Origin: Bacteroidota bacterium
GTDB lineage: Bacteria; Bacteroidota; Bacteroidia; Bacteroidales; GCA-2748055
DNA: 36,855 bases
Direction of reading: 5' to 3'
NCBI GenBank assembly: GCA_030637895.1
Contig: DAOWFP010000074.1
Location: 1-36,855 of the forward strand
The notes under the pieces are model-generated. The model made no database searches. It saw only the letters and a program-made list of their open reading frames with translations, and was not told the DNA's origin. Every line of letters starts with the position of its first letter. The stretch's first letter is position 1. A program made the position numbers and the translations under genes. Shown piece after piece: positions 5,662 to 25,775 of this stretch.

Positions 5662-6649
5662 CATTGAATTTACATATCCGGCTTTCTTTTATGCCCTGGC
5701 TCTGATTCCCATGATGGCTGCATGGTATCTATGGAAGGGAAGAAAAGGGACTGCTCCCCTGAAGCTGTCTGGATTTGAAAACCTGGATGAACACAAAGGA
5801 TCTACCAGGGTCTGGCTGCGTCATCTTTTGGCTCTGCTCAGAATGGCTGTGGTAAGCCTGATCATCGTGGTGCTTGCCAGGCCACAATCGTCCAACCAGT
5901 GGGAACAGGTAACTACTGAGGGTATAGATATAGTACTCTGTATGGATGTGTCTGGTAGTATGGGTGCTATGGATTTCAAGCCCAACAGGCTGGAGGCTTC
6001 AAAAAATGTGGGTATTGAATTTGTGCATGCCCGTGAGGACGATCGCTTTGGACTGGTAGTGTTTGCCGGTGAGAGTTTTACTCAGTGTCCCATGACCACC
6101 GACAGGGCTGTGGTGGTTAATTTTCTTAAGGAGGTCGATTTTGGCGTAATTGAAGATGGCACTGCCATAGGAATGGGACTGGCTACGGCGGTTAACCGCA
6201 TCAAAGAGAGCAAAGCCAAAAGCAAGGTGATTATTCTACTTACCGACGGGGTAAACAACAGGGGAGATGTGGGACCGGTAACCGCTGCCGAAATAGCAGC
6301 AGGTTATGAGATCAGGGTCTATACCATTGGTGTGGGTTCCAAAGGAAATGCACCCATTAAGGTGCAGGATATGTTTGGAAGGACCGTCATCAGGGACATG
6401 CCCGTTGAAATAGACGAAGATGTATTGAAACGAATTGCAGAGACTACCGGGGGAACATATTTCAGGGCCACCGATAACAACAAACTTAGAGAAATATACC
6501 AGGAGATTGATCAACTTGAGAAAACAAGACTCGATGTCAAACAATTTAGCAAGAAAAAAGAAGAGTACTTTCCTTTCCTGCTGGCGGCCATGTTAATTTT
6601 ATTACTTGAGATACTCCTCAGATACACCATTTTCAGAACAATTCCTTAA
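5654..6649 (+). CDS. batA: VWA-domain membrane protein BatA
   Basis: TM segments and VWA MIDAS DVSGSMGAMDFKPNRLEASK; start MSNIEFTYP overlaps the previous gene by 8 bp. Confidence 0.9.
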   Translation: MSNIEFTYPAFFYALALIPMMAAWYLWKGRKGTAPLKLSGFENLDEHKGSTRVWLRHLLALLRMAVVSLIIVVLARPQSSNQWEQVTTEGIDIVLCMDVSGSMGAMDFKPNRLEASKNVGIEFVHAREDDRFGLVVFAGESFTQCPMTTDRAVVVNFLKEVDFGVIEDGTAIGMGLATAVNRIKESKAKSKVIILLTDGVNNRGDVGPVTAAEIAAGYEIRVYTIGVGSKGNAPIKVQDMFGRTVIRDMPVEIDEDVLKRIAETTGGTYFRATDNNKLREIYQEIDQLEKTRLDVKQFSKKKEEYFPFLLAAMLILLLEILLRYTIFRTIP

Positions 6650-6651
6650 GC

Positions 6652-7695
6652 ATGATCCAATTCGCACATAAGGATATATTATGGTTCTTGCTGGCCGCGG
6701 GATTAATGATCGTCGGATACATGCTCTATTGGAGTCACCGTAGGCGTTCACTGGTCTTACTGGGTGATAGTGCCTTGCTTGAAGAGCTGATGCCGGAGGC
6801 CTCCGGTGGAGCTCTGCACTGGAAATTTTTTCTACTGTTTACGGGTACAGTACTTCTGATTATTGCTGCATCCGGACCTAGAATTGGATCCAGATTGCAG
6901 GAGGTAGAGCGTAAGGGAAGGGAGATCATCATAGCACTTGATGTTTCTAACAGTATGTTGGCTGAAGATATTAAACCATCCAGGCTTGAGCGGTCCAAAC
7001 AGATGATCAATCGGATGGTCGACCGGATGTCAAATGATAAGATTGGCTTGATTGTCTTTGCGGGGGACGCTTACACGCAGATTCCTATTACAGATGATTA
7101 CCCCAGCGTCAAGATGTTTCTTTCCGGAGCTGGGCCTGATATGGTATCAAAACAGGGCACTGCCATTGGTTCAGCCATTCATCTTGCAGTCCGTTCATTT
7201 TCTACTGATGAAGGGGGCCGCATGGCAGGAGAGCGTGTTCCCAGCCAGGCAATTGTTGTGATTACTGATGGGGAGAATCATGAGGATGATGCAGTGGGCG
7301 AAGCTACACGTGCTGCAGAAAAAGGCATTAGGGTATATACGGTTGGATTGGGAGATCCCAATGGTGTACCGATACCTCTCTCCCCAGGCAGCAGTGCCAC
7401 ACGGCGGGATCGTGACGGGAATGTTGTGGTCAGTAAACTGAATGAAAAATTACTAAAGGAAGTGGCAACAGAGGGCCGGGGTGCCTACATTCCGGGCGAC
7501 CGGATCAACAGTCTGATTGATGAATTGGATAAGCTGGAAAGAGCCGAACTGAAAACCCGTGTATTTGCCGAGTTTGCGGAGCGCTTCCAGTACTTTGCCG
7601 GTTTTGCACTTTTCTTTCTCTTGCTTGAATTTTTTATTCGCTCAAGGAAGAACCGCTTTTTACTTCGCCTGAACCTGTTTAAAACGAATAAATAA
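6652..7695 (+). CDS. batB: VWA-domain membrane protein BatB
   Basis: MIDAS DVSNSMLAEDIKPSRLERSK, FAGDAYTQIPITDDY, VITDGENHEDDA. Confidence 0.9.
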   Translation: MIQFAHKDILWFLLAAGLMIVGYMLYWSHRRRSLVLLGDSALLEELMPEASGGALHWKFFLLFTGTVLLIIAASGPRIGSRLQEVERKGREIIIALDVSNSMLAEDIKPSRLERSKQMINRMVDRMSNDKIGLIVFAGDAYTQIPITDDYPSVKMFLSGAGPDMVSKQGTAIGSAIHLAVRSFSTDEGGRMAGERVPSQAIVVITDGENHEDDAVGEATRAAEKGIRVYTVGLGDPNGVPIPLSPGSSATRRDRDGNVVVSKLNEKLLKEVATEGRGAYIPGDRINSLIDELDKLERAELKTRVFAEFAERFQYFAGFALFFLLLEFFIRSRKNRFLLRLNLFKTNK

Positions 7696-7701
7696 GAGCA
7701 T

Positions 7702-8454
7702 ATGAATAAGAGATCATGTCTGATATTGATGGTGCTGATGGTGGTCATCTCCGCTTATGGTCAAAATGAGCGAAAGGTGATTCGGGATGGTGTCAGGGCA
7801 TATGAAGAAGGGGAGTATGCTAAGGCCGAGGTTCAGTTTCGTAAGGCAGAGAATATAAATCAGGAGTCCTTTGAAGCAGATTTCAATACAGGGGCTGCTC
7901 TGTACGGTCAAGAGAAATATGAAGAGACTGTAAAACAGTACGAATCACTGCTGGCTCAGGCCGATGATGCAGAAAAGGCAGCCCAGATATGGCACAATAT
8001 TGGGAACAGCCTTCTGGAAGCTCAGCAGTATGAGCCTAGCATTGAGGCGTATAAGAATAGCCTGCGGAAAAATCCCGCTGACGAAGATACCAGATACAAC
8101 CTGGCGTATGCAAAACAGAAGCTGAGGGAGCAACAACAGCAACAACAAGACCAGGATCAGGATAAGGATCAGGATCAAGACCAGGATCAGGATCAGGATC
8201 AAAACCAGGATAAAAATCAAGATCAGCAAGAGCAAGAGCAGGAACAGGATAAGAGTGAGGATCAGCAAGAGCAAGAGCAGGAACAGGATAAGAATGAGGA
8301 TCAGCAGGACCAACAGCCTGCGCCCAGGGAGATATCCAAAGAAGATGCGGAGCGTATGCTGAATGCCATTCAGCAGCAAGAAAAGGATGTGAAAGAGAAA
8401 GTTGATAAGAAAAAAGCAGCAGCAGCCAAGGTTAAAACAGAAAAGGATTGGTAA
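7702..8454 (+). CDS. batC: TPR protein BatC with Gln/Asp/Glu-rich low-complexity segment
   Basis: Signal peptide, TPRs, then QDQDKDQ/QEQEQ tract; position in the bat operon. Confidence 0.85.
   Translation: MNKRSCLILMVLMVVISAYGQNERKVIRDGVRAYEEGEYAKAEVQFRKAENINQESFEADFNTGAALYGQEKYEETVKQYESLLAQADDAEKAAQIWHNIGNSLLEAQQYEPSIEAYKNSLRKNPADEDTRYNLAYAKQKLREQQQQQQDQDQDKDQDQDQDQDQDQNQDKNQDQQEQEQEQDKSEDQQEQEQEQDKNEDQQDQQPAPREISKEDAERMLNAIQQQEKDVKEKVDKKKAAAAKVKTEKDW
8221..8298 (+). repeat. Two 39-bp in-frame tandem repeats inside batC (DQQEQEQEQDK[S/N]E)
   Basis: 8221-8259 and 8260-8298 differ by one base; a partial third copy follows; preceded by hexamer CAGGAT-type repeats. Confidence 0.9.
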
Positions 8455-8463
8455 TTTCAGACC

Positions 8464-10284
8464 ATGGGTAAAAAGATACTCATATCGCTTACAGGACTAA
8501 TTGTATTAGGTGTACTGCTGAACGCTCAGGATGGTTTTACAGCTTCGGCACCCCCTGTGGTCAGAGTTGGTGATCAGTTCCATTATGTGGTGGAGGGCTC
8601 GGAACGTGGCGATGTAAGAGTTCCTGCCATGGACAATTTTCAATTGCTGGGCGGACCCTACTCCTCTTTCTCGTCCCATTCACAATGGATCAACGGGAAG
8701 ATGACCCAGAAAACCCTGGTAGCCTACACCTATGTTTTCAGTGCTGTTTCCGAAGGTAATTTTGCCATTCCGGCAAGCACAATTAGGGTAGGAAGGAAGG
8801 AATACAGAACCAATGTAGTTGAGATAGTTGTAAATGCGGCAGGTACCGGAAGAGCTGAGCAGGGAGCTAATGAGGCTGGGACTGTGGTAAGCTCCTCTGA
8901 AGATGATCCGGTTTTCCTAAGGGTGATCCCTTCCAAAAAGGAGGTCTACGTGGGAGAGCAGTTTGTGTCCGAATTAAAAGTCTATACCAGGGTAAATACC
9001 CGGCCAGGTTCATCGGCCAGTGATTTACCCTATGAAGGATTTTACAAAAATAATCTCGATCCTGATGCCACAGCACAACAACAGGAGATCGACGGTCAGG
9101 TTTTTGTGACCCAGGTAATTAAGCGACATATATTGATTCCGCAGAAGAAGGGTAAGCTGGAGATTGCTCCTTACAAATCCGAATGGATGGTGCAGCAAAG
9201 GGTGCAGCGGCAGAGAAGCAACAATCCCATTGATAACTTCTTTGATGATCCATTCTTCAACAGTCTCCAGGAGGTGCCGGTCACCCTATCTACACTTCCG
9301 GTGACCATCCATGTGAAGCCATTGCCTTCAGGAGAGCCAGTGGGTTTTACCGGAGCAGTTGGCGATTTCCAGATGAAAGCGGCGCTCTCATCCACTGAAA
9401 TTGGAGTGAATGAAGCTCTCAGCCTGAAAATCACCATTAGCGGAACAGGCAATCTTCCCTTGTTGAGTGAACCCGAGGTAAACCTGCCACCCGACCATGA
9501 CCTTTATGATGTAACACGCTCTGTTCAAACCAGCACATCCGGGAATCGGATTTCAGGCTCTGTTACTTTTGAATATCCTATTATCGCCAGACATGCTGGA
9601 CGTTTTAGAATTGCGCCAGTGCAGTTTGCGTGGTTTGATCCGAAAGTGGGTGTCTACCTTACATCGCTTACGGACGAATTCAACTTCACAGTGGTAAAAG
9701 GAGAAAATGATGATATATCAGGTGATGTCTATGTACCGGGTGTGGTACATGAGAGTGTCAGGGACCTTGGAACTGATATCCGGGACATAAGCCGTGAATC
9801 TCCGGTTTTCACTTCTGTAAAAAGATCCCTGTTTGGAAACCGGTGGTACAGGTTATTCTACCCCTTCGCTCTTCTTCTTACGCTTATACTGATTGTTTTT
9901 ATCAGTGTCGTTGCCAGGAGAAATGCAGATCTGACACTTGTAAGAAATCGCTTGGCTGGAAGATCGGCTCGTGCCAGGTTGAAGAAAGCCGATCGCTTTA
10001 GAAAATCTGGTGATCCGGATAAATTTTACGAGGAGATTGGGAAAGCCATATGGGGATACCTCTCCCATAAGTTGAATATCGAAACCTCCGGGCTTTCACG
10101 GGAGGTGATTCTGGAACATCTGGAGAAACGAAATGTTCCCCGGGAGCAGCGAAGCGAGCTGCTTAGAATCCTCGAAGAGAGCGAGTTTTCCAGGTTCGCA
10201 CCTAGCTCTGAGAGAAGCGATATGAACATCCTATACAGCGAAGCTGCACAACTAATCAGAAACCTAGAAAACAATCTGAAATGA
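8464..10284 (+). CDS. batD: BatD family protein
   Basis: Signal peptide, repeated beta-rich domains (VGEQFVSELKVYTRVN), C-terminal TM and cytosolic helical tail; bat operon position. Confidence 0.9.
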   Translation: MGKKILISLTGLIVLGVLLNAQDGFTASAPPVVRVGDQFHYVVEGSERGDVRVPAMDNFQLLGGPYSSFSSHSQWINGKMTQKTLVAYTYVFSAVSEGNFAIPASTIRVGRKEYRTNVVEIVVNAAGTGRAEQGANEAGTVVSSSEDDPVFLRVIPSKKEVYVGEQFVSELKVYTRVNTRPGSSASDLPYEGFYKNNLDPDATAQQQEIDGQVFVTQVIKRHILIPQKKGKLEIAPYKSEWMVQQRVQRQRSNNPIDNFFDDPFFNSLQEVPVTLSTLPVTIHVKPLPSGEPVGFTGAVGDFQMKAALSSTEIGVNEALSLKITISGTGNLPLLSEPEVNLPPDHDLYDVTRSVQTSTSGNRISGSVTFEYPIIARHAGRFRIAPVQFAWFDPKVGVYLTSLTDEFNFTVVKGENDDISGDVYVPGVVHESVRDLGTDIRDISRESPVFTSVKRSLFGNRWYRLFYPFALLLTLILIVFISVVARRNADLTLVRNRLAGRSARARLKKADRFRKSGDPDKFYEEIGKAIWGYLSHKLNIETSGLSREVILEHLEKRNVPREQRSELLRILEESEFSRFAPSSERSDMNILYSEAAQLIRNLENNLK

Positions 10285-11108
10285 AACGAGCAGCCATATT
10301 CCTGATCATATTTTTTACTTGCATGTCACTGTTACCGGGGTCAGAAAAAGAAGTTGAGCTAAAGAATGTTTTGCTTGAAACAGCTTCACCACAAATAAAT
10401 CTTGATCATGCAAATATTGATTCCCTGTATCTTATTGCTAACACTTTGTACCAGCAGGGTCAGTTTGAGCCGGCATTGGAGAAGTACAACACCGTAATTC
10501 TCAGTGGAAAGGAGTCCGCAGATCTCTATTACAATATGGGCAATGCGGCATACCGTTCCAATAGCATAGGTCATGCAATTCTCTATTATGAGAAAGCTCT
10601 TAAACTGGAGCCCACTCACGATGATGCCGTACATAACCTGGACTTCGTTTCACGATATCGGCTCGATACTTTTGAAGAAGTGCCGGTACTGTTCCTTGGC
10701 GCCTGGATCACTGGATTTGTTCAGCTGTTTCCTGAACAAACTTGGAGCATTCTGGCACTGATCTTTTTTATAATCATCCTTGTTGGACTCATGATCTATT
10801 TATTTTCCAGACATCTGACCATGAAGAAATTGGGTTTTATAAGTGGCCTGGCCGCCCTGTTGCTGTTTGTGATCACACTCTCTTCAACTATTTCCAGGCA
10901 CAGGGATATTATAAATCCGGATTCAGGTATTATACTTGCCCCGTCGGTAGTGGTTCGCAGTTCACCCAGTGAAAGTGGAACAGAGCTATTTATCTTACAT
11001 GAAGGAAGCAAAATCAAGGTGAATGAAGAAGTAAGCGGCTGGCAAAACATCAGGCTTATTGATGGACGAGAAGGGTGGATAATAGCAGACGATTTTGAAT
11101 CAATTTGA
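10281..11108 (+). CDS. batE: BatE-like TPR/SH3 membrane protein
   Basis: TPR (ADLYYNMGNAAYRSNSIGHAILYYEKALKLEP), two TM helices, C-terminal SH3b-like (VVVRSSPSESGTELFILHEGSKIKV...GWQNIRLIDGREGWI); ATGA overlap with batD. Confidence 0.85.
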   Translation: MKRAAIFLIIFFTCMSLLPGSEKEVELKNVLLETASPQINLDHANIDSLYLIANTLYQQGQFEPALEKYNTVILSGKESADLYYNMGNAAYRSNSIGHAILYYEKALKLEPTHDDAVHNLDFVSRYRLDTFEEVPVLFLGAWITGFVQLFPEQTWSILALIFFIIILVGLMIYLFSRHLTMKKLGFISGLAALLLFVITLSSTISRHRDIINPDSGIILAPSVVVRSSPSESGTELFILHEGSKIKVNEEVSGWQNIRLIDGREGWIIADDFESI

Positions 11109-11113
11109 AAGGG

Positions 11114-11138
11114 AAAGCTGCCCGCCCTTAGCAGCTTT
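11114..11138. terminator. Bidirectional hairpin candidate between batE and acylphosphatase
   Basis: Perfect 8-bp inverted repeat AAAGCTGC-N9-GCAGCTTT in a 34-bp convergent gap. Confidence 0.6.
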
Positions 11139-11142
11139 AAGT

Positions 11143-11415
11143 CTAATAAATAATCTCAAAGGGATTCAGGTGTTCCGGTTTCATTTCCTTAATGTCAACT
11201 CGTTCAACCCAGCTATATCCGCTTCCCTCTCTGCACCACTTGATAAAATGGGCACAGTGCTCCGAATCTCCGCTGACCACTGCTCTCACTGATCCATTAG
11301 CCAGGTTCTCTACCCAGCCTTTCAGCCGCAGGGATCTGGCCTGCCTTCTTGCAGCTGCTCTGAATCCAACTCCCTGGACCCTTCCGGATACTTTGATTTC
11401 GAACTGACTGAGCAT
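11143..11415 (-). CDS. acyP: Acylphosphatase
   Basis: KVSGRVQGVGFRAAARRQARSLRLKGWVENLANGSVRAVVSGD signature; start MLSQFEIKV at 11415. Confidence 0.92.
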   Translation of the reverse strand: MLSQFEIKVSGRVQGVGFRAAARRQARSLRLKGWVENLANGSVRAVVSGDSEHCAHFIKWCREGSGYSWVERVDIKEMKPEHLNPFEIIY

Positions 11416-11425
11416 ATATAAGTGT

Positions 11426-13681
11426 CTACAGAATAATAAGTGTGTAGAGCAATTCGTCAACAAGGTCGGTGCTGATCAACATAAGGCTTGCCTGTTCGGT
11501 CTGCCTGCCAGGTACTGCAAGTTCCTGTCCCTTAAAGATTCCTTTGTTTTTGGACCTGGCCGGATTGATAAATCCGGAGATTACCTCCGAAGTGTTTTCA
11601 GCCGGAAAGAGTTTCTCCACACGACTTCCAAGGACCTCCTTTTGCTTCATTTTCCACCGCTTTTCGGCATGCCTGTTAAAGAAGAGCACAAATCCCAGGT
11701 TGTTTATGGTAATGACGCTGTAGGGCAGTTCTTCCAACACATGGATATACTGTCTGAGCTCCTTTCCAAACTTCTCGATTTCTTGCTTCCTTAATTGCAC
11801 TGTTTCTTCCAGCTTCTTCTTCAGGTCAAGTGTTGCAAGGCGCTGATCCTCCTCTTTTCTGATCAGTTTGTCATGCTGTTTCCTGGAGACAAGTTCCATC
11901 TCTTTCTCCTTGGTCATTTCACTGGCCAGAAAGATCACCTTTTCCACCTCACCATACATGTCATTTACAGAGAGAAAAGTGGCTCTGAACCACAGCTCCT
12001 CCTCAAATTTAGACTGCATTTTCAGCTGCCCCTGGAAGGCCTCACCGCGGATCACCTTTTCCCAGATTTCAGTGAATCGCTCCTGTTCAGCAGTCCCGAA
12101 AAAATCAAAAACATTCATTTGGACCTGTTCCAGTTCGGTATATTTCATTGCGCTTCCAAACAGGGTGTTGCTAAGTTGAAGTTTTCCATCGAGTGAGAAG
12201 ATCGCCTTGGCATTGAGACGGTCAATAGCTTCAATCTGCCCCTCATAGTCAATACTTTGTTTCTTCTGCTCTGTGGAATCAATGGCCAGAAAGAGGATCT
12301 TCTCCACACTGCCATCGTCATGCCTTACGCAGGTGTAAGTAGCCATGGTCCAGAGATCCTGACCCATCTTTGTCTCATGCTTCATATAACCTTCAAAGTG
12401 CCTTCCGCCCTTTGAAAGCTGCTCCCAGAGAGAATTAAACCATGCGTGGTCCTTTTCATTGATAAACATAGAGATATGTTTTCCTTCAATCTCCCTGTTT
12501 CCCGAATAACCCAGTTTCTTCAGAAACCTTGTATTTGCATAGATCAAATTCCCGTCCGTATTATAATCTGCACGCATGAGAGTGTGGTTAACCGTATTGG
12601 TAAAACTGATAAAAATCTCTGCCTGCTTGGCACGCTCATCCTGGGCCAGTTTCAGGGCTTCCATATTCTGTCTGACTTGCTCTTCCTGGACCAGTAGTTG
12701 ATCTGCCTGTGCCCTGGTCTCCTTCAGGAGCTGTTCTGTGCGCAGATTACTATCCATGGTAGAGATGGTGGTGGCTATGTTCTCAGCCACACGCTGCACA
12801 AACTGGATCTTGTAGTCTTCCATCCGGTTGAAGGTGGCAATTTCAATGATGCCGAATACCTGGTCATTCCACACCAGGGGCTCAATTAAAAGATATCTGG
12901 GATTAGCTTTGCCCAGGCCCGATGTAATGGTCAGGTAGCCGTCGCTGATTTTATCTGTATAGTATCCTTTTCTCTCCACCGCAGCAGCCCCGATCAGTCC
13001 ATCGCCCCATGCCACCCGCTTGCCCGGAAATTTCTTTCGGTCATAAGCATAGCAGGCCACCATCTCCAGGTAACGGTCGCTTTCATCCTCACGCACAAGA
13101 AACAGAGCTCCCTGGTTAGCTTCAAGATATCTGATCAATCCTGAGATCACTGCATAGGTCATGGTCTCCATCTCCAGCGAGTTCTTTCGCAGGATATCCC
13201 CGAACTCAGCCAGACCTTCTGAGGTCCAGTTTCTCTGGCGTTCATCGAGACGGCGTTGCCGCTCCATCTTCCTGTTTCGTGAGAGTGAATCTTTCAATTC
13301 ATTCAGGGTTTCAGAAAGGGATTGATCAATAAGAGTCAACTCCACAGAATTATGTAGTTCCCCTGCGATCAGGGAGTGGATAAATCCTTTGATCTCCTCG
13401 TTTTTATCTGTCTCCTGACCAATCTTTTCGGAAAGTGTATGGAGCTGTTTAAAACGCCAGTTGGCAATCCACGCACCGAACAGAAGAGCGGGAAAGGCAA
13501 GCGAATCGAGAAGGAACAGAATGGGGAGATCGCCATGCAGTTGTGCAATTGCTCTAAATGAGAAGGGTGTTTCCAGGACATGGAGGAGCAGGGCGTATTG
13601 TGTGATCGTTAGAACCATTCCCAGTACAAAGCCAATTGCACTGTAACGGATGATCATCTCCTTTTTATTCAGTTCTTGCAT
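11426..13681 (-). CDS. Membrane PAS/GAF sensory protein without recognisable output domain
   Basis: Two N-terminal TM helices, coiled coil, GAF-like domain, two similar PAS units followed by a third PAS; no H-box, HATPase, GGDEF or PP2C motif seen to the C-terminus. Confidence 0.8.
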   Translation of the reverse strand: MQELNKKEMIIRYSAIGFVLGMVLTITQYALLLHVLETPFSFRAIAQLHGDLPILFLLDSLAFPALLFGAWIANWRFKQLHTLSEKIGQETDKNEEIKGFIHSLIAGELHNSVELTLIDQSLSETLNELKDSLSRNRKMERQRRLDERQRNWTSEGLAEFGDILRKNSLEMETMTYAVISGLIRYLEANQGALFLVREDESDRYLEMVACYAYDRKKFPGKRVAWGDGLIGAAAVERKGYYTDKISDGYLTITSGLGKANPRYLLIEPLVWNDQVFGIIEIATFNRMEDYKIQFVQRVAENIATTISTMDSNLRTEQLLKETRAQADQLLVQEEQVRQNMEALKLAQDERAKQAEIFISFTNTVNHTLMRADYNTDGNLIYANTRFLKKLGYSGNREIEGKHISMFINEKDHAWFNSLWEQLSKGGRHFEGYMKHETKMGQDLWTMATYTCVRHDDGSVEKILFLAIDSTEQKKQSIDYEGQIEAIDRLNAKAIFSLDGKLQLSNTLFGSAMKYTELEQVQMNVFDFFGTAEQERFTEIWEKVIRGEAFQGQLKMQSKFEEELWFRATFLSVNDMYGEVEKVIFLASEMTKEKEMELVSRKQHDKLIRKEEDQRLATLDLKKKLEETVQLRKQEIEKFGKELRQYIHVLEELPYSVITINNLGFVLFFNRHAEKRWKMKQKEVLGSRVEKLFPAENTSEVISGFINPARSKNKGIFKGQELAVPGRQTEQASLMLISTDLVDELLYTLIIL

Positions 13682-16264: not shown

Positions 16265-17800
16265 TCAATCAAAAACCAGGTCAAGATATTCAAGCCGACC
16301 TTGGGTCCACTGAGTGAAGTAAAGGAGTTCGTAATCCATATCGATATCCACGCTCTCCCATCTAAGGTTTTCTCGTTCAATGGCCCCGCTCCTTTTCAGA
16401 AGATCGGTATAAAACCGGGCAGGTGCCAGCAGTGCGTCCAGTTTAAAGATCGATTCCCTGTAACGCTCCCATCCGTCTTCAAGCAAATCGTTGAACTCCT
16501 CCACATCCTGCTCCATAAGCCGCTTATAGAGATTGTTTTCAAGCATGCCACTGGAAGTGCTTTCTTCTCCATGCCACATGATTCCCCAGGAAGCCTCCAG
16601 GTCCCAGGGAAGCATCAGGAAATGGGATTCATCCGCATACCTGGCCAGGAAGTAATTCTTAATGATATTATCATGTGCTAAAATCAGGTTGGTAAAAAGG
16701 TAGTAGTCGGCTGCAGCGGACAGATTTAGCAGAGTGTCAATACGCTCTGAAAAAACTTCATCCTCCGCAAAGACCACAGTTTTTCTAAGTTCAGCTAGGG
16801 GTTCCCAACAAAAGAGATGATCCGGATAGACCTGTTCCCAGCCCTCCCATATTATGGACGTATCTGGTTCACTGTTGTAAGTTTGAAAAGCGGTGGCGCC
16901 TCCGGCCCATGTAATGGCTTTGTACAGGACTCCCTCCGATCCGGGCTGACCCTGAGAAAGCTTGATCAATTTTTCATCCAACTTTTCTGAGAGGCAATAG
17001 AGCCCCATATATCTCTGATTGATAAACAGTTCTATGTATTTGCACTGAATACCGGGCTTCAGTGTTCTAAATGGTGTTTCGCTCTTACTGTCCCACATCT
17101 TCTCCCAAATTTCAAAGGAGAGCTTATTACGCATACGGAGGCGATCCACATACATGGCATCCAGGATCCAGTCTTCCCCATACCTCATACCAAGCAAAGG
17201 CGCTTCATGATCATTCCCATACCTGTCCGCCCATAGCTCCAGGCCGTAGGACTTCTTTTCATGTGCGGCAGAGGTCCTGCCACGGATCTCAATTCCGGCG
17301 TAGCTTGTATATAGTCGCGTTTCAGCTGCTCCGTCTTTCTCATTGGCATACGCTAACTCCACCCAGGAAAGGACCTTGGGTTCATCCGGAATTTTTGTTT
17401 CTGTATTAATTTGAAGCAGGGGAAGGTTTGTGAAATAGAGTTGAAATGTATGAGTCCCTTCACTGTTACGGGCAACAACAGTATAGGGACGATTCACCAC
17501 TACCTCCCCAAGATCATTTTCCTCATCCGCTTTCAGTTTGATGCCATCAATCTCCACGTCGTGATAAGAGCCAAAGCCAACATGGGGCGTAAATGAATTA
17601 AGAGTATCTGAAGGCAGGGGATAAAGTAAGAGCTTGGATTTCAGATCGGCAAAGGCAAATACCTGGTCAAATTCAAGTACCTCTTCGGATACGACCTGCA
17701 CTTCAGGCTCATCGATTTCCTGCTCCATATAACAAGCCCTGAGGAGTCCAATACTTAAAATTCCCAGGGCAAGAAGCTGATTATGAGAAGCGATTGCCAT
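16265..17800 (-). CDS. CotH-family (atypical protein kinase-like) lipoprotein
   Basis: Lipobox-like LLRAC; GRTSAAHEKKSYGLELW, NYFLFTN-type YYLFTNLILAHDNIIKNYFLARY and LMLPWDLEASWG motifs. ATG at 17800 (ORF track starts at TTG 17803); TGATG coupling with the upstream gene. Confidence 0.85.
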   Translation of the reverse strand: MAIASHNQLLALGILSIGLLRACYMEQEIDEPEVQVVSEEVLEFDQVFAFADLKSKLLLYPLPSDTLNSFTPHVGFGSYHDVEIDGIKLKADEENDLGEVVVNRPYTVVARNSEGTHTFQLYFTNLPLLQINTETKIPDEPKVLSWVELAYANEKDGAAETRLYTSYAGIEIRGRTSAAHEKKSYGLELWADRYGNDHEAPLLGMRYGEDWILDAMYVDRLRMRNKLSFEIWEKMWDSKSETPFRTLKPGIQCKYIELFINQRYMGLYCLSEKLDEKLIKLSQGQPGSEGVLYKAITWAGGATAFQTYNSEPDTSIIWEGWEQVYPDHLFCWEPLAELRKTVVFAEDEVFSERIDTLLNLSAAADYYLFTNLILAHDNIIKNYFLARYADESHFLMLPWDLEASWGIMWHGEESTSSGMLENNLYKRLMEQDVEEFNDLLEDGWERYRESIFKLDALLAPARFYTDLLKRSGAIERENLRWESVDIDMDYELLYFTQWTQGRLEYLDLVFD

Positions 17801-18513
17801 CAAAACTTATAGGTGTAATTGGCTCTTAACATGTAGATCATGGCTGGTTCTACTTCGTTTATTTCTCTGTTGAATCCAAGGGCAAAGCCAAAAACTCCAA
17901 ATTTTCCCGGCTCGTATTTGACGCCTCCCTGAATACGGAAATACTCGAATTCAGGGGTTTGATTGGGTGAGAACAGCTGGAAAATCTCCGCTGAAACATA
18001 GGGTTTGAACTTCTTAAAATCGTCATATCTGATCCGGATACGGTTCCGCACATACTTCTCATAATCCACCCCCTGATCAAGGAGATTAAAACCCTCCACC
18101 TCTTTCTGATACCTCAGTCGGTAGTGGATACTAATATAATCCAATTGCCCCTTGTACCTCAGATCAAGGTTGTAACGGGTCAGTGTTTCATAGGTGCCGT
18201 CAGATTTCCTATCCCTGGTATACCTGTATCCAGCCTCCAGTGCAAAATTTTTATTGATTCTGTACCGGACTCCGGCATCGGTAAAATAGTTATTAATTTC
18301 GCTGATATCCTTCTTGAATCTGATCTCCTCAGCAAGAGAAAAGGTCCAGTCCTTTCCCACTTTCTTTTCCAGAGCAACACCTGTCCAGAGTTGCAGGTCA
18401 CGCACCACCTTAGTTTCCTGACCGGCCAGTGGCAGGACGGAAAGCAGGATGATGGTTAATATCAGGAGTCTGACACCTGAGTTTTCATATTTCATTGCAG
18501 TGCTAATTTTCAT
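17800..18513 (-). CDS. DUF2490-like outer-membrane beta-barrel protein
   Basis: Signal peptide; LQLWTGVALEKKVGKDWTFSLAEEIRFKKDI...YFTDAGVRYRINKNFALEAGYRY; C-terminal Phe (ANYTYKF). Alternative start at 18495. Confidence 0.8.
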   Translation of the reverse strand: MKISTAMKYENSGVRLLILTIILLSVLPLAGQETKVVRDLQLWTGVALEKKVGKDWTFSLAEEIRFKKDISEINNYFTDAGVRYRINKNFALEAGYRYTRDRKSDGTYETLTRYNLDLRYKGQLDYISIHYRLRYQKEVEGFNLLDQGVDYEKYVRNRIRIRYDDFKKFKPYVSAEIFQLFSPNQTPEFEYFRIQGGVKYEPGKFGVFGFALGFNREINEVEPAMIYMLRANYTYKF

Positions 18514-20188
18514 AAAGGAGCAATTCGGGATATAGCGGATTTGGGATGCTAACCCTTACATTCTCAAAGGACATTTGTATGATATCAGCGGCCCAGTGTT
18601 CCCTGTTCATGTTCCAGACATCATACACATGGTTGTCCAGGCTTTCTGAGTTGGCAACATGGATGAAACCATGATGCGGGAAATCGTAACAGTCACCGTA
18701 CCTGATTCCAATTCCGTTCCCGATAAACCTGCACGATTCCACTTCCACCAGGTGGTTTGGACTGCTGTAGCCCAATTCAAGTCCCTGACCATTGTTGGTG
18801 AAGAGTGAATTGCTTATCTGGTGCAGTTTTATCACGGAATGGCCGCTGGAAAGGGCTGCTCCCTCGTGAAAGTTCGCTTCAAACCTGCAGTTGTTAATAC
18901 GCACTTCCCCACCTCCGCTGGCCCCGCTGTCCAATCCATCATCCTTGGCATACATAAAAACACAGTTGTTTATGGATGCATTGCATTCACTCAGGTAGAG
19001 TCCATCGTTGTCCTCATCCCTGTAATCGTAGCTATCATCTGGAAAATCAGTAAAGACACAGCGATTCATAACAAGTTCCGATTGGTTCATCTGCCCCCCG
19101 GTTTTGGCCCTCTGTACCAGACAATCACTCAGTTCAAGAGTACATGAAACAGGATAAAAAACCTGTCCGATATGATCGTTTATATAACAGTGGTCCAGCG
19201 CCAGTTCTCCGTTTTCGCTATAAAAGAGCGCTTGTCTTCCGGCATGACCATAGTTGTATCCATCACCGCTATGGTAACCGCTCCTGCTAAAGATGGTATA
19301 GCTTGCTTCCACACGGTTTCCTGCTGAGCTTCCAATAAAGCCGCCCCAATAGTTCTCCTCATCGCTGCAGGTGACTGTAAGTGGGGCGTCGGCTGATCCG
19401 TCCAGGATTAGCAGGCCATTATTGATGATATTGACTTCCGGGTCGATGGTAATAAAGGATCCGCTGCCTATACTTAAAGTGATGCCTTCCGGAATGCTTA
19501 ATTGCGAAGGGACATGTATATAACTTCCCGGGGGAATATATGTATCGCCTTCAAGTTCGCCGCTCAGCAACAGGGGAGGTGTCTCAATGGGGCTGATATT
19601 CACAAAAAAGTTCCTGTGATCGATTATCAGTGCTGTTTCACTATTGCTTCCCGGTATCTGAAGTGAACCCACGCCTCGCTTGATCCTGAACTTGAGGGAG
19701 CCAAATTCAGCATCCAGGTTGCTATCCGAATGGGTGAGTTCTTCACCAAGCAGAACAATCAGTGGAACAGCAACTCCCTGGGGAGCTGCAGCCGTATAAA
19801 TTAGTTTAACCGTCTGATCCCCGATTTCTCCGGCTACAGGCTCCAGCGGAGTCCAGGGTGGTAGTCCCCATTCTGTGTTTCCCCGTTCCGGATCCAGAAT
19901 TACCAAACGTATCACCTCCGGTGTGTTTTGACCAGAACGCTTCAGGTAGATCTCTAAATGGTAGTATCCTGCTGTTTTGAGTTCAAGCAGATTCAGGTTG
20001 TGGACTTCCGAACCATTCACCACAAGCCGATCCACCTTTTTTCCCTTATATGATAAACAATTCACAAGCATACCGCTGGTATAGTCCTTTTTGTCGCTTA
20101 GATCATCCAGGGATAGTCCCAGGGGACCTGTCTCACATGAAAAAAGGAAAACAAAAAGGGCTAATACGTTCAATCTCCAATCCCTCAT
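18503..20188 (-). CDS. Right-handed parallel beta-helix lipoprotein
   Basis: Lipobox LFSC; repeated helix rungs (LSECNASINNCVFMYAKDDGLDSGASGGGEVRINNCRFEAN); ATGA overlap with the upstream CotH gene. Confidence 0.8.
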   Translation of the reverse strand: MRDWRLNVLALFVFLFSCETGPLGLSLDDLSDKKDYTSGMLVNCLSYKGKKVDRLVVNGSEVHNLNLLELKTAGYYHLEIYLKRSGQNTPEVIRLVILDPERGNTEWGLPPWTPLEPVAGEIGDQTVKLIYTAAAPQGVAVPLIVLLGEELTHSDSNLDAEFGSLKFRIKRGVGSLQIPGSNSETALIIDHRNFFVNISPIETPPLLLSGELEGDTYIPPGSYIHVPSQLSIPEGITLSIGSGSFITIDPEVNIINNGLLILDGSADAPLTVTCSDEENYWGGFIGSSAGNRVEASYTIFSRSGYHSGDGYNYGHAGRQALFYSENGELALDHCYINDHIGQVFYPVSCTLELSDCLVQRAKTGGQMNQSELVMNRCVFTDFPDDSYDYRDEDNDGLYLSECNASINNCVFMYAKDDGLDSGASGGGEVRINNCRFEANFHEGAALSSGHSVIKLHQISNSLFTNNGQGLELGYSSPNHLVEVESCRFIGNGIGIRYGDCYDFPHHGFIHVANSESLDNHVYDVWNMNREHWAADIIQMSFENVRVSIPNPLYPELLLYEN

Positions 20189-21432
20189 GGTTGAATATCT
20201 TCAAGTTGTTCTTTCATGGCAGAAAGCCGCTCTTTAAGCATAGCCTTTTTTTCTGCCATGTTTTCTTCCCAGAGTTTGAAGCTCGTTTCATGCTGATCAA
20301 ACTGTGATTGAAAAATCACTTCCTTATTATAATAAAAGGGGGTCAGTTCATTTTTTACCTGCTCAAATATCTGATCAATATCTCCTGCGCTCATCTTTTC
20401 CAGCATGACCGCCACGCTGCTTTCATAGCGGCCATACATATAGGGATCCATAGCGATGGCATAGTCCAGGTCGTCTTCAATGGAAAAGATCAATTTGTTC
20501 CCAATCTCATTCAGAATATCCTGGTGGGAACCATAATAGCGATCTCCAAAGAGATGGCCTGATCCCCAGGTGAGGCCCACTTCATGAGGATAGCTCCGGA
20601 AGAGGTCATCGTAATCCCAGGGAATGATGCTGAACCTGATCTGATCCTGCTGGACCAGGGCATAGAAAAAGACCTCATCTGTATAATCGCCATTTTGCAG
20701 AAGGTAATCAATAGCCATCTTCCTGAAATATTGGTCCATATCCATTCTTAGATTCAGTGCATTGTACAGTTCTTCTCCCTGGAGAAGGGGTAGCTTACTG
20801 TATATCTCCCTGAATCTTGTTTCATAATTTTCTCTTGGAATGGAATGGTAGGAGGGTTCATATTCAGCATCTGCAATGCTGTTGTAGTATCCCCGGCGAA
20901 GAATATATTCTGAACCATGCTCCTTGTAGTATTTTTCAGGATCTTCAACCAGCAGATAGACTCCCTGGCTGATTCCATTGATTTTCAATTCCACATACCT
21001 GTAAAACAGTGGCATGATCTCCTGCTTCTCCAGGATTCCATATCCTATCCTGTTCTCTATGTAGGTATAATCCATGGCCATGGCAATCAACTTGAATCTA
21101 CTGAGCTTTTTTATCTCGGATCCGTTTATTGCGGTCAGAGCCACAGCCTGGTTTAAGTTCACCATATAACTTTTCCGCTGAAACCGCAGGGCACTTTTAC
21201 CTCGGGTTCTGATTTCCTTCAGGTCCAGTGGCCAGTTATCCAATGAAAATGTCATTTGCGGCTCATAAATGGTGTAGCTTGTATCCCTGCTGTCATAGAT
21301 GAATTCCTGCATCTCCGGACTGACCGACAGCTCAAACACAGCACCACTGTATAGGGGTACTTCCACCTCTTTATAGCATGAGCTAATCCAAATAAGAAAT
21401 ATAGCTGGTATAATGAATCTGAAATATCTCAA
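20185..21432 (-). CDS. CotH-family (atypical protein kinase-like) lipoprotein
   Basis: Lipobox WISSC; TRGKSALRFQRKSYMVNL, YVELKINGISQGVYLLVEDPEKYY, NGDYTDEVFFY and IPWDYDDLF. Confidence 0.85.
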   Translation of the reverse strand: MRYFRFIIPAIFLIWISSCYKEVEVPLYSGAVFELSVSPEMQEFIYDSRDTSYTIYEPQMTFSLDNWPLDLKEIRTRGKSALRFQRKSYMVNLNQAVALTAINGSEIKKLSRFKLIAMAMDYTYIENRIGYGILEKQEIMPLFYRYVELKINGISQGVYLLVEDPEKYYKEHGSEYILRRGYYNSIADAEYEPSYHSIPRENYETRFREIYSKLPLLQGEELYNALNLRMDMDQYFRKMAIDYLLQNGDYTDEVFFYALVQQDQIRFSIIPWDYDDLFRSYPHEVGLTWGSGHLFGDRYYGSHQDILNEIGNKLIFSIEDDLDYAIAMDPYMYGRYESSVAVMLEKMSAGDIDQIFEQVKNELTPFYYNKEVIFQSQFDQHETSFKLWEENMAEKKAMLKERLSAMKEQLEDIQP

Positions 21433-24179: not shown

Positions 24180-25387
24180 ATCAGAAGAGAACTGTCCCCG
24201 TAACTCAGGAAGCGGAATCCCTCCCCGAGCGCATAGTCATAGACTTTTTTCCAGTCTTCTCCTATCCACGCTGCAATCAAAAGCAGCAGGGTGCTTCCCG
24301 GCATATGGAAATTGGTAAGCAGACCACTGATGGTTCTGAAGCGATATCCCGGTACAATCATCAGCTGGGTGGAAAAGTGCAAATACTCCAGTTCGTGCTG
24401 TTCACAATATTCCAACAGGGCTTCGATACTCTCAGACAAAGGGATTTCCTGCGGTAAATTCTCATTGTCCCATTGCAGGATGGACAGTGTTGATGGGGCG
24501 GCCGGAGCCTGCTCCTTTATTTTTATACCCAGCCAGTAGAGCGATTCCAGACTGCGGGTACTTGTGGTGCCCACAGCAATCAATCCATCGCTTCTTTTCA
24601 ACCATTGCTCCAGAAAACTCCTGGTCACCACCACCAGTTCCGAATGCATGGAGTGGTCCCTGGCATTCTTCTCCTTTACAGGAACAAACGTGCCGGCACC
24701 CACATGGAGCGTTACATGGGCCAATGGGATTTTCTCCTGCTCCAGCTGCTGCATCATCTCACCTGTAAAGTGCAAACCTGCTGTGGGTGCAGCTACCGAG
24801 CCATTATTCAAACTGTATATGGTCTGGTAACGCTCCCTGTCGCTTTCCTCAGCTTTCCTGTTCAGATAGGGTGGGATCGGAGTGCTTCCCGACTGTTCAA
24901 TGATCTCTCCAAACGTCACTCCGCTTTGCTGCCAGCGAAACTCAACCTTGAATCCTTCACCGCTTCTTTCAATGAGATAGGCCTGCAACTTTAGCGCTGC
25001 ACCATTGATAGTGGTGTGCAAAGAGACCGGACCACTCTTCCATTTTTTTGCATTTCCAACCAGGCAAAGCCAGGTGGCTGTGGTTTCGGCCTGGAAGGAC
25101 AATTCATAGTCAGCAGGATTGATGGGCTCCAGGCAGAAAATCTCAATGCGTGCCCCTGTTTCTTTTTTAAAGTTGAGACGGGCCTGGATGACCCTGGTAT
25201 TGTTAAAGACCAACCATGCTCCTGAGGGCAAGTGTTCCGGCAAAGTGCTAAATCGGTCCTGTGAGATGTCCCCCTTCTCATAAAGCAATAATTTGGATGC
25301 TGATCTGTCGGCCAGAGGATACCTGGCAATGCTGGATTCGGGCAGCCTATACTTGAAGTTCTCAATATGGGTGCTTGGCTCAGGCAT
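24173..25387 (-). CDS. queA: S-adenosylmethionine:tRNA ribosyltransferase-isomerase
   Basis: YRLPESSIARYPLADRSASKLL, NNTRVIQARL, PTAGLHFT, HVGAGTFVPV, NFHMPGSTLLLL. Confidence 0.95.
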   Translation of the reverse strand: MPEPSTHIENFKYRLPESSIARYPLADRSASKLLLYEKGDISQDRFSTLPEHLPSGAWLVFNNTRVIQARLNFKKETGARIEIFCLEPINPADYELSFQAETTATWLCLVGNAKKWKSGPVSLHTTINGAALKLQAYLIERSGEGFKVEFRWQQSGVTFGEIIEQSGSTPIPPYLNRKAEESDRERYQTIYSLNNGSVAAPTAGLHFTGEMMQQLEQEKIPLAHVTLHVGAGTFVPVKEKNARDHSMHSELVVVTRSFLEQWLKRSDGLIAVGTTSTRSLESLYWLGIKIKEQAPAAPSTLSILQWDNENLPQEIPLSESIEALLEYCEQHELEYLHFSTQLMIVPGYRFRTISGLLTNFHMPGSTLLLLIAAWIGEDWKKVYDYALGEGFRFLSYGDSSLLIP

Positions 25388-25406
25388 GTTTTATGAATGA
25401 TGTCGG

Positions 25407-25414
25407 CAAAATTA
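25407..25414 (-). promoter_or_regulatory. -7 box TAATTTTG for queA
   Basis: TAnnTTTG on the minus strand, about 20 bp upstream of the queA ATG. Confidence 0.5.
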
Positions 25415-25416
25415 AC

Positions 25417-25424
25417 TAATTTTG
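25417..25424 (+). promoter_or_regulatory. -7 box TAATTTTG for rnpB
   Basis: TAnnTTTG 18 bp upstream of the first P1 base of RNase P RNA. Confidence 0.6.
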
Positions 25425-25442
25425 CATAGTTCTTTAAAATTT

Positions 25443-25770
25443 TGCAGTAGTTGATCCTGTCGCTGCAGGCTTCGGCCTGTGGAGGAAAGTCCGGGCAGCT
25501 AAGGGTACCGCACTGTTGAAAAACAGATGTCTGTGAGGGCATGGGTGCAAAGAAGAAAATAACCGCCTCCTCACGGAGGTAAGGGTGAGAAGGTGGGGTA
25601 AGAGCCTACCAGTGTGGCGGGTGATCGTTACAGCTGTTTGTCCTGCGGGCTGAAAGGCCATGTATACCGGCATTATAAAAGCTACCCGCTTCTGCCGGGG
25701 GGTAGGCCGCTTAGAAAAATGACAGGGATCCTTTAAACAGGATACAGAACCTGGCTTAACAACTACTGCA
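25443..25770 (+). ncRNA. rnpB: RNase P RNA (bacterial type A)
   Basis: 11-bp P1 pairing TGCAGTAGTTG(25443-25453)/CAACTACTGCA(25760-25770); GGAGGAAAGTCCGGGC; AAGGGTGAGAAGGTGGGGTAAGAGCCTACC; GGCCGCTTAGAAAAATGACAG; ACAGAACCTGGCTTA; T7 tract follows. Confidence 0.97.
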
Positions 25771-25775
25771 TTTTT

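Follow-up and report, generated by a model that had tools for sequence, protein, structure and literature searches.

In Bacillus, CotH is a spore-coat kinase, and in the B. subtilis protein the aspartates D228 and D251 are both required (PMC7821199). Beyond spore formers CotH domains are widespread, but their role there is unsettled; in Streptococcus intermedius, deleting the CotH gene SIR_1594 of the Pel locus lowered Pel and aggregation (PMC12345266). A DUF4956-DUF2490 gene pair is known from Bacteroides thetaiotaomicron (BT3498-99; PMC10434189). The cassette described here lies on the minus strand, at 16265-21432, of a 36,855-nucleotide stretch of contig DAOWFP010000074.1 (hereafter the window) from an uncultured marine Bacteroidales bacterium whose assembly is 58.75% complete and spread over 210 contigs. 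It is a compact, block-inherited set of four genes that pairs an apparently intact CotH with a divergent CotH, a beta-helix protein and a barrel, and that ties DUF2490 to CotH. We tentatively propose, with slightly less than even confidence, that the four products form a phosphorylation complex at the outer membrane, probably exposed on the cell surface. The features, in the order of transcription cotH1, beta-helix gene, DUF2490, cotH2, are:

20185..21432, minus strand: cotH1, encoding a CotH-family lipoprotein (SSC followed by YKEVE; Pfam CotH, 3.2e-26), matched by sequence to B. cereus CotH (5jd9) and supported by ortholog alignments
20185..20188, minus strand: 4-bp ATGA overlap of cotH1 and the beta-helix gene, with an identical -4 overlap in loci L030, L031, L032, L036 and L037
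18503..20188, minus strand: beta-helix gene, encoding a right-handed parallel beta-helix lipoprotein (FSC followed by E; Pfam Beta_helix, 7.5e-10), studied by AlphaFold2, Foldseek and ortholog alignment
17800..18513, minus strand: DUF2490, encoding a predicted outer-membrane beta-barrel (Pfam DUF2490, 1.2e-21), studied by structure model and Foldseek
17798..17803, minus strand: TTGATG junction of DUF2490 and cotH2, with a spacing of -4, -1 or 0 in orthologues of the same gene order
16265..17803, minus strand: cotH2 (TTG start; an ATG at 17800 lies within TGATG), encoding a CotH-family lipoprotein (RAC followed by YMEQE; Pfam CotH, 2.7e-42), studied by alignments and tree

A sequence-only reading of the window had listed these four genes with their junctions, three lipobox-like signals, and a fourth product with a signal peptide and C-terminal Phe, and each of these held up on closer analysis: the coordinates and overlaps are correct, and CotH1, CotH2 and the beta-helix protein all carry a lipobox Cys. 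All four Pfam matches exceed the gathering cut-offs of their families; for CotH (PF08757; 23.8 bits) CotH1 scores 93.1 and CotH2 145.9. The beta-helix gene and DUF2490 overlap by 11 bp, or are separated by 7 nt if an inner ATG is the DUF2490 start, and the junction spacing is -4/-11/-4 or -4/-8/0 in most orthologues of the same gene order. The ATGA overlap is likely to couple translation of cotH1 and the beta-helix gene. The cassette has unremarkable flanks: prfC, convergent and 22 bp past cotH2, and a C69 peptidase gene divergent from cotH1. A promoter and terminator scan was uninformative, with 12 sigma-70-like sites where 9.6 were expected and 1 terminator-like site where 4.4 were. The PADLOC anti-phage defence models gave zero matches for any of the four proteins, and a reading as a defence system was dropped.

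Of 28 genomes from the genus and family, 13 have the cassette conserved as a block. All of the compared genomes are draft metagenome-assembled genomes in which absences may reflect contig gaps, except at six directly seen empty junctions, each in a relative of the genus in which prfC lies directly beside the C69 peptidase gene with no cassette between them. Beta-helix orthologues (full or truncated by contig ends) and cotH1 are each present in 12 of the 28 genomes and together in 11 (Fisher's exact p = 6e-6, uncorrected for kinship), and the two mismatches are contig ends, the G017 contig stopping inside cotH1 and the G023 contig beginning inside the beta-helix gene. The cassette occupies at least three genomic sites: prfC-C69, another in G013, and another in G023, G026 and G027. 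The gene order in G012 is rearranged to cotH1-cotH2-beta-helix-DUF2490 with all members kept. The lipoprotein cotH2 is missing from G013 and G014, where a convergent CotH with a type IX secretion system (T9SS) tail takes its position. Loss of the neighbourhood in related genomes, which the sequence-only reading had named as evidence against itself, was looked for and is not the case. Because genomes of the genus and family keep it together, with mostly conserved overlaps, the cassette goes beyond chance adjacency, and it is gained and lost as one unit. That four unrelated neighbours overlap here by accident is extremely improbable in view of how the cassette comes and goes as a block at three sites, the retention of every member in the rearranged G012, and the repeated fusion or shared operons of CotH and beta-helix in the other families described below. 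At the site shared by G023, G026 and G027, a convergent protein follows the cassette (L036 11864-14200, L037 11838-14435, L040 2417-4996), with LTD domains where scanned (L036).

The two CotH proteins are not equivalent. A residue check against PF08757 aligns the ATP-site Lys, the catalytic Asp and PWD in both. When aligned to the 5jd9 chain, the lipoprotein orthologues of CotH2 keep the Lys, the catalytic-loop Asp, the Asn at +5 and PWD; the D228- and D251-equivalent Asp residues of CotH2 lie 23 residues apart, and two orthologues vary at the second Lys of KKSY. CotH1 keeps the ATP-site Lys (RKS[YF]), the catalytic-loop Asp and PWDYDD, and its loop reads NGD[YN]TDE[VIL] (NGDYTDEV in the window), the metal-binding Asn at Asp+5 being V, I or L in 10 of 10 orthologues. 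CotH2 appears to be an intact kinase and CotH1 a CotH with an altered catalytic loop, and the earlier picture of two like CotH kinases needs changing in this respect.

These residues also bear on the possibility that the CotH folds are surface-binding proteins of an adhesin or structural complex in which catalysis plays no part, an idea already put forward for the CotH invasins of fungi. In Mucorales, an invasin role is reported for CotH (PMC12211043), the catalytic Asp is missing from many CotH domains fused to beta-helices, and the LTD, CHB_HEX and T9SS tails of relatives suggest extracellular matrix-like proteins. However, conservation of K, D, N and PWD in lipoprotein CotH2, and of K, D and PWDYDD in CotH1, would be surprising in proteins that made no use of catalysis, and we regard an adhesin as unlikely. 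In beta-helix-linked CotH domains elsewhere the catalytic Asp is often absent (S/T in five fusions, unrecognisable in three, and Ser in L100b and L166), and the loop is intact, of DWPxNN type, in four fusions of one other family (L167-L170). A degenerate CotH-like gene with the loop HHHAT adjoins two of these four (L169 5590-7758 and L170 3936-5951), and intact and divergent CotH are found together in three lineages. A generalisation that fusion to a beta-helix always goes with loss of the catalytic Asp from CotH held for the first five fusions (S/T) and was dropped; only a weaker pattern of CotH/beta-helix pairing was kept, because L167-L170 retain the intact loop.

In trees built with FastTree only, on a divergent domain, CotH2 is the sister group of the CotH proteins of loci that encode VTC and DUF4956, with a support of 0.989 in a small tree and 0.906 in a larger one, and the T9SS-tailed CotH that replaces cotH2 in G013 and G014 belongs to the same VTC-locus clade. 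The sequence-only reading had remarked on the absence of VTC and DUF4956 genes, which is true locally, as none occurs among the cassette genes and checked neighbours in the window. Both are nonetheless present elsewhere in the same genome (contig C179), and genomes of the family have VTC, DUF4956 and DUF2490 together at a locus of their own, beside which a T9SS-tailed CotH lies in the four that were scanned (G008, G011, G012 and G020). The cassette is not independent of this system but related to it, given the sister position of CotH2 to its CotH proteins and the regular presence of DUF2490 in it. On the simplest reading, the cassette appears to be a CotH and beta-helix unit joined to a DUF2490 and CotH unit of VTC/DUF4956 kin. 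DUF2490 genes do occur apart from the cassette, and they too lie beside CotH in the loci scanned.

The same relationship raises the alternative that the separate VTC-DUF4956 locus makes polyphosphate or another phosphorylated polymer, which the cassette would process and which would leave through DUF2490 as a pore. It would accord with the CotH2 phylogeny, with the adjacency of VTC, DUF4956 and DUF2490 in several relatives and of CotH beside them in the four scanned genomes, and with a CotH-beta-helix fusion beside VTC and DUF4956 in G492. The cassette, however, has neither VTC nor DUF4956 and is sited elsewhere in the genome, and genomes without the cassette retain the VTC locus, so we consider this role quite unlikely. 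In L103 (G008, 6517-12053) and its equivalents L104, L105, L107, L108 and L114, a transthyretin/SdrD-like lipoprotein and an exported protein of about 140 amino acids regularly precede VTC-DUF4956-DUF2490, an arrangement that the papers found do not describe.

The beta-helix protein is a standing partner of CotH and probably not simply a substrate, because CotH adjoins it or shares its open reading frame (ORF) in most of its relatives outside the family. A search with beta-helix profiles that held no CotH sequence found relatives in 18 genomes of other Bacteroidota families, and in 12 of the 18 a CotH is encoded in the same polypeptide or in the next gene. The two are joined in one ORF in ten of the genomes (L102, L150-L152, L167-L170, L172, L174 and L175, with L168 and L170 from one genome) and lie in overlapping or abutting genes in two (L100, ordered CotH / beta-helix / CotH, and L166). 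Against a background of 15 CotH genes per 3,500, a crude binomial gives 4e-19 for the pairing, a value that is only indicative because the search profile held beta-helices taken from fusions. In the operon of G235, CotH, beta-helix and CotH genes overlap in that order and all three products are T9SS cargo, and contig C20 of the window's own genome encodes a single 1322-residue protein with Beta_helix, CotH and LTD domains. On that contig (L041, 6366-13689), two convergent giant CotH proteins of 1112 and 1322 amino acids have LTD and T9SS-tail features, the beta-helix being in the larger. In L151 (G492:C16, 3190-10336), a CotH-beta-helix-LTD fusion is followed by an HlyD-like protein, VTC, DUF4956 and a lipoprotein-like ORF, placing both CotH systems side by side. 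A search of the openly licensed literature on CotH with Bacteroidetes lipoproteins, lamin tail or beta-helix returned nothing relevant, which is no proof of novelty.

The sequence-only reading had cast the beta-helix protein as substrate or scaffold, and the substrate half of that suggestion fares poorly. Were the lipoprotein itself phosphorylated by both CotH kinases, in the way that spore CotH acts on CotB and CotG, the adjacency and co-inheritance of the genes would be as expected, and cotB, cotG and cotH are clustered in B. subtilis (PMC7821199). The protein, though, contains at most 11 Ser, Lys and Arg in any 40 residues and has no Ser/Lys/Arg-rich repeat of the CotB/CotG type, its best-conserved residues form an Asp/Asn cluster and not Ser/Thr tracts, and fusion in cis to CotH in many relatives suits a partner domain better. 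We therefore judge a substrate role to be distinctly unlikely, and a partner or recognition domain fits better. The acidic cluster, D-x-DND...KDDG[LI]D, is invariant in the ortholog alignment; it may be like a PL9-type calcium site (DxDND...DDxxD). An AlphaFold2 model has a mean predicted local distance difference test (pLDDT) score of 80 with a confident helix core, and Foldseek places it nearest to PL6 alginate lyases, AlgG/AlgE epimerases and NosD (E about 1e-4). Given their low TM-scores, these matches point to a class of fold rather than to a function. Pfam returns only the generic Beta_helix for a PL6 or other polysaccharide lyase assignment, and no significant sequence match was found in the Protein Data Bank (PDB).

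The N-termini of the lipoproteins suggest where the cassette acts. Among the loci examined around the cassette and its relatives, C-Y-x-E begins the mature protein in 10 of 10 CotH1 and 8 of 8 lipoprotein CotH2 sequences and in none of 20 other ORFs with a loose lipobox pattern. The surface-lipoprotein export signal of Bacteroidota is optimal as C-X-K-(D/E)2 (PMC5080379), which C-Y-[KREM]-E matches in part, with mostly one acid and not two adjacent. CotH1 and CotH2 are probably exposed on the surface of the outer membrane, because this motif resembles the export signal and because cassette CotH exchanges with, and has fusion partners among, T9SS cargo. The beta-helix lipoprotein is without the C-Y-x-E signal and could face either side. 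The DUF2490 product of the window has a signal peptide, about 11-12 strands and a C-terminal Phe and is predicted to be an outer-membrane barrel; all orthologues have the signal peptide and end in an aromatic residue or Leu. The Foldseek matches of its model (pLDDT 75) are nearly all to outer-membrane barrels (best E 9e-4); it has no sequence relative with a solved structure, the fold gave the broad class only, and DUF2490 receives only passing mentions in the openly licensed literature.

Taken with the catalytic residues kept in CotH2, these features support the first suggestion of a CotH cassette of the envelope, probably at the outer surface, that includes a DUF2490 barrel. In the complex that we tentatively propose, CotH2 would be the likely active kinase, phosphorylating a surface or matrix component that may be a glycan or glycoprotein. 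CotH1 would probably be an activating or substrate-positioning partner, as the pseudokinase Fam20A is the activator of the secretory kinase Fam20C (PMC5865150); the beta-helix lipoprotein, with a fold of carbohydrate-acting proteins, may be the recognition or scaffold part; and the barrel may anchor the complex or pass something across the outer membrane. By analogy, the nearest experimental support for a surface or matrix role is the SIR_1594 deletion in S. intermedius. An extended version, in which CotH and this beta-helix family are an extracellular kinase and divergent-kinase system phosphorylating surface polysaccharide, much as the glycan kinase Fam20B acts on xylose, with the beta-helix binding the glycan and DUF2490/VTC supplying polyphosphate or exporting the product, seems very unlikely.

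Several points weigh against the proposed complex. Outside the cell, the presence of ATP would be unexpected, and phosphorylation at the exterior of a Gram-negative bacterium would, if true, raise the question of the phosphate donor. Beta-helix folds widely resemble one another and the top Foldseek scores of the model are low (query-normalised TM-scores of 0.17-0.33), so these matches argue only faintly for carbohydrate binding. The Asn lost in CotH1 is replaced by Ser in the CotH proteins of VTC loci, and CotH1 could therefore still be active. Six of the 18 outside genomes have a beta-helix relative with no CotH nearby. A close kinship of CotH1 with the CotH of the distant G235 operon, supported at 1.0 in the small tree, was weakened when support fell to 0.44-0.53 in the larger one. 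Finally, DUF2490 is a porin-like family without established function (PMC4827864).

Elsewhere in the window, an RNase P RNA gene (25444-25773, plus strand; Rfam RF00010, 186.5 bits) lies opposite a 183-residue ORF (24991-25542, minus strand) whose first 40 or so codons look strongly conserved. The conservation of the ORF start is explained by the RNA gene on the other strand, and the ORF is probably not a protein gene.

Compared with known systems, the cassette CotH proteins share with Bacillus CotH a kinase-like domain with the ATP-site Lys, the catalytic Asp (D228) and the metal Asp (D251, in PWD). Unlike it, they are lipoproteins or secreted, in a Gram-negative that does not form spores; they come as a pair, of which one member has an altered loop, and no Ser/Lys/Arg-repeat substrate is found nearby. 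The likeness to Fam20A and Fam20C would be one of working only, an intact and a divergent kinase of CotH-related fold acting outside the cytoplasm; those are animal proteins, and the resemblance lies in the joint occurrence of an intact and a divergent CotH in three lineages. CotH1 lacks the +5 Asn, but the VTC-locus CotH have Ser at that place. With PL6 alginate lyases and AlgG-type proteins only the fold class is shared. The multidomain T9SS proteins that join CotH, beta-helix and LTD (L150-L152, L167-L170, L172, L174, L175) contain the same beta-helix family, whereas the cassette splits the parts into separate lipoprotein genes and adds a second CotH and a barrel. Loci of VTC-DUF4956-DUF2490-CotH type, to which BT3498-99 and the Pel operons of Gram-positives (PMC7112168, PMC12345266) also belong, share the DUF2490 barrel and a CotH of the CotH2 clade; the cassette differs in having neither VTC nor DUF4956, in a CotH2 that is a lipoprotein and not T9SS cargo, and in the additional CotH1 and beta-helix protein. 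The cassette is best read as a variant of known CotH loci.

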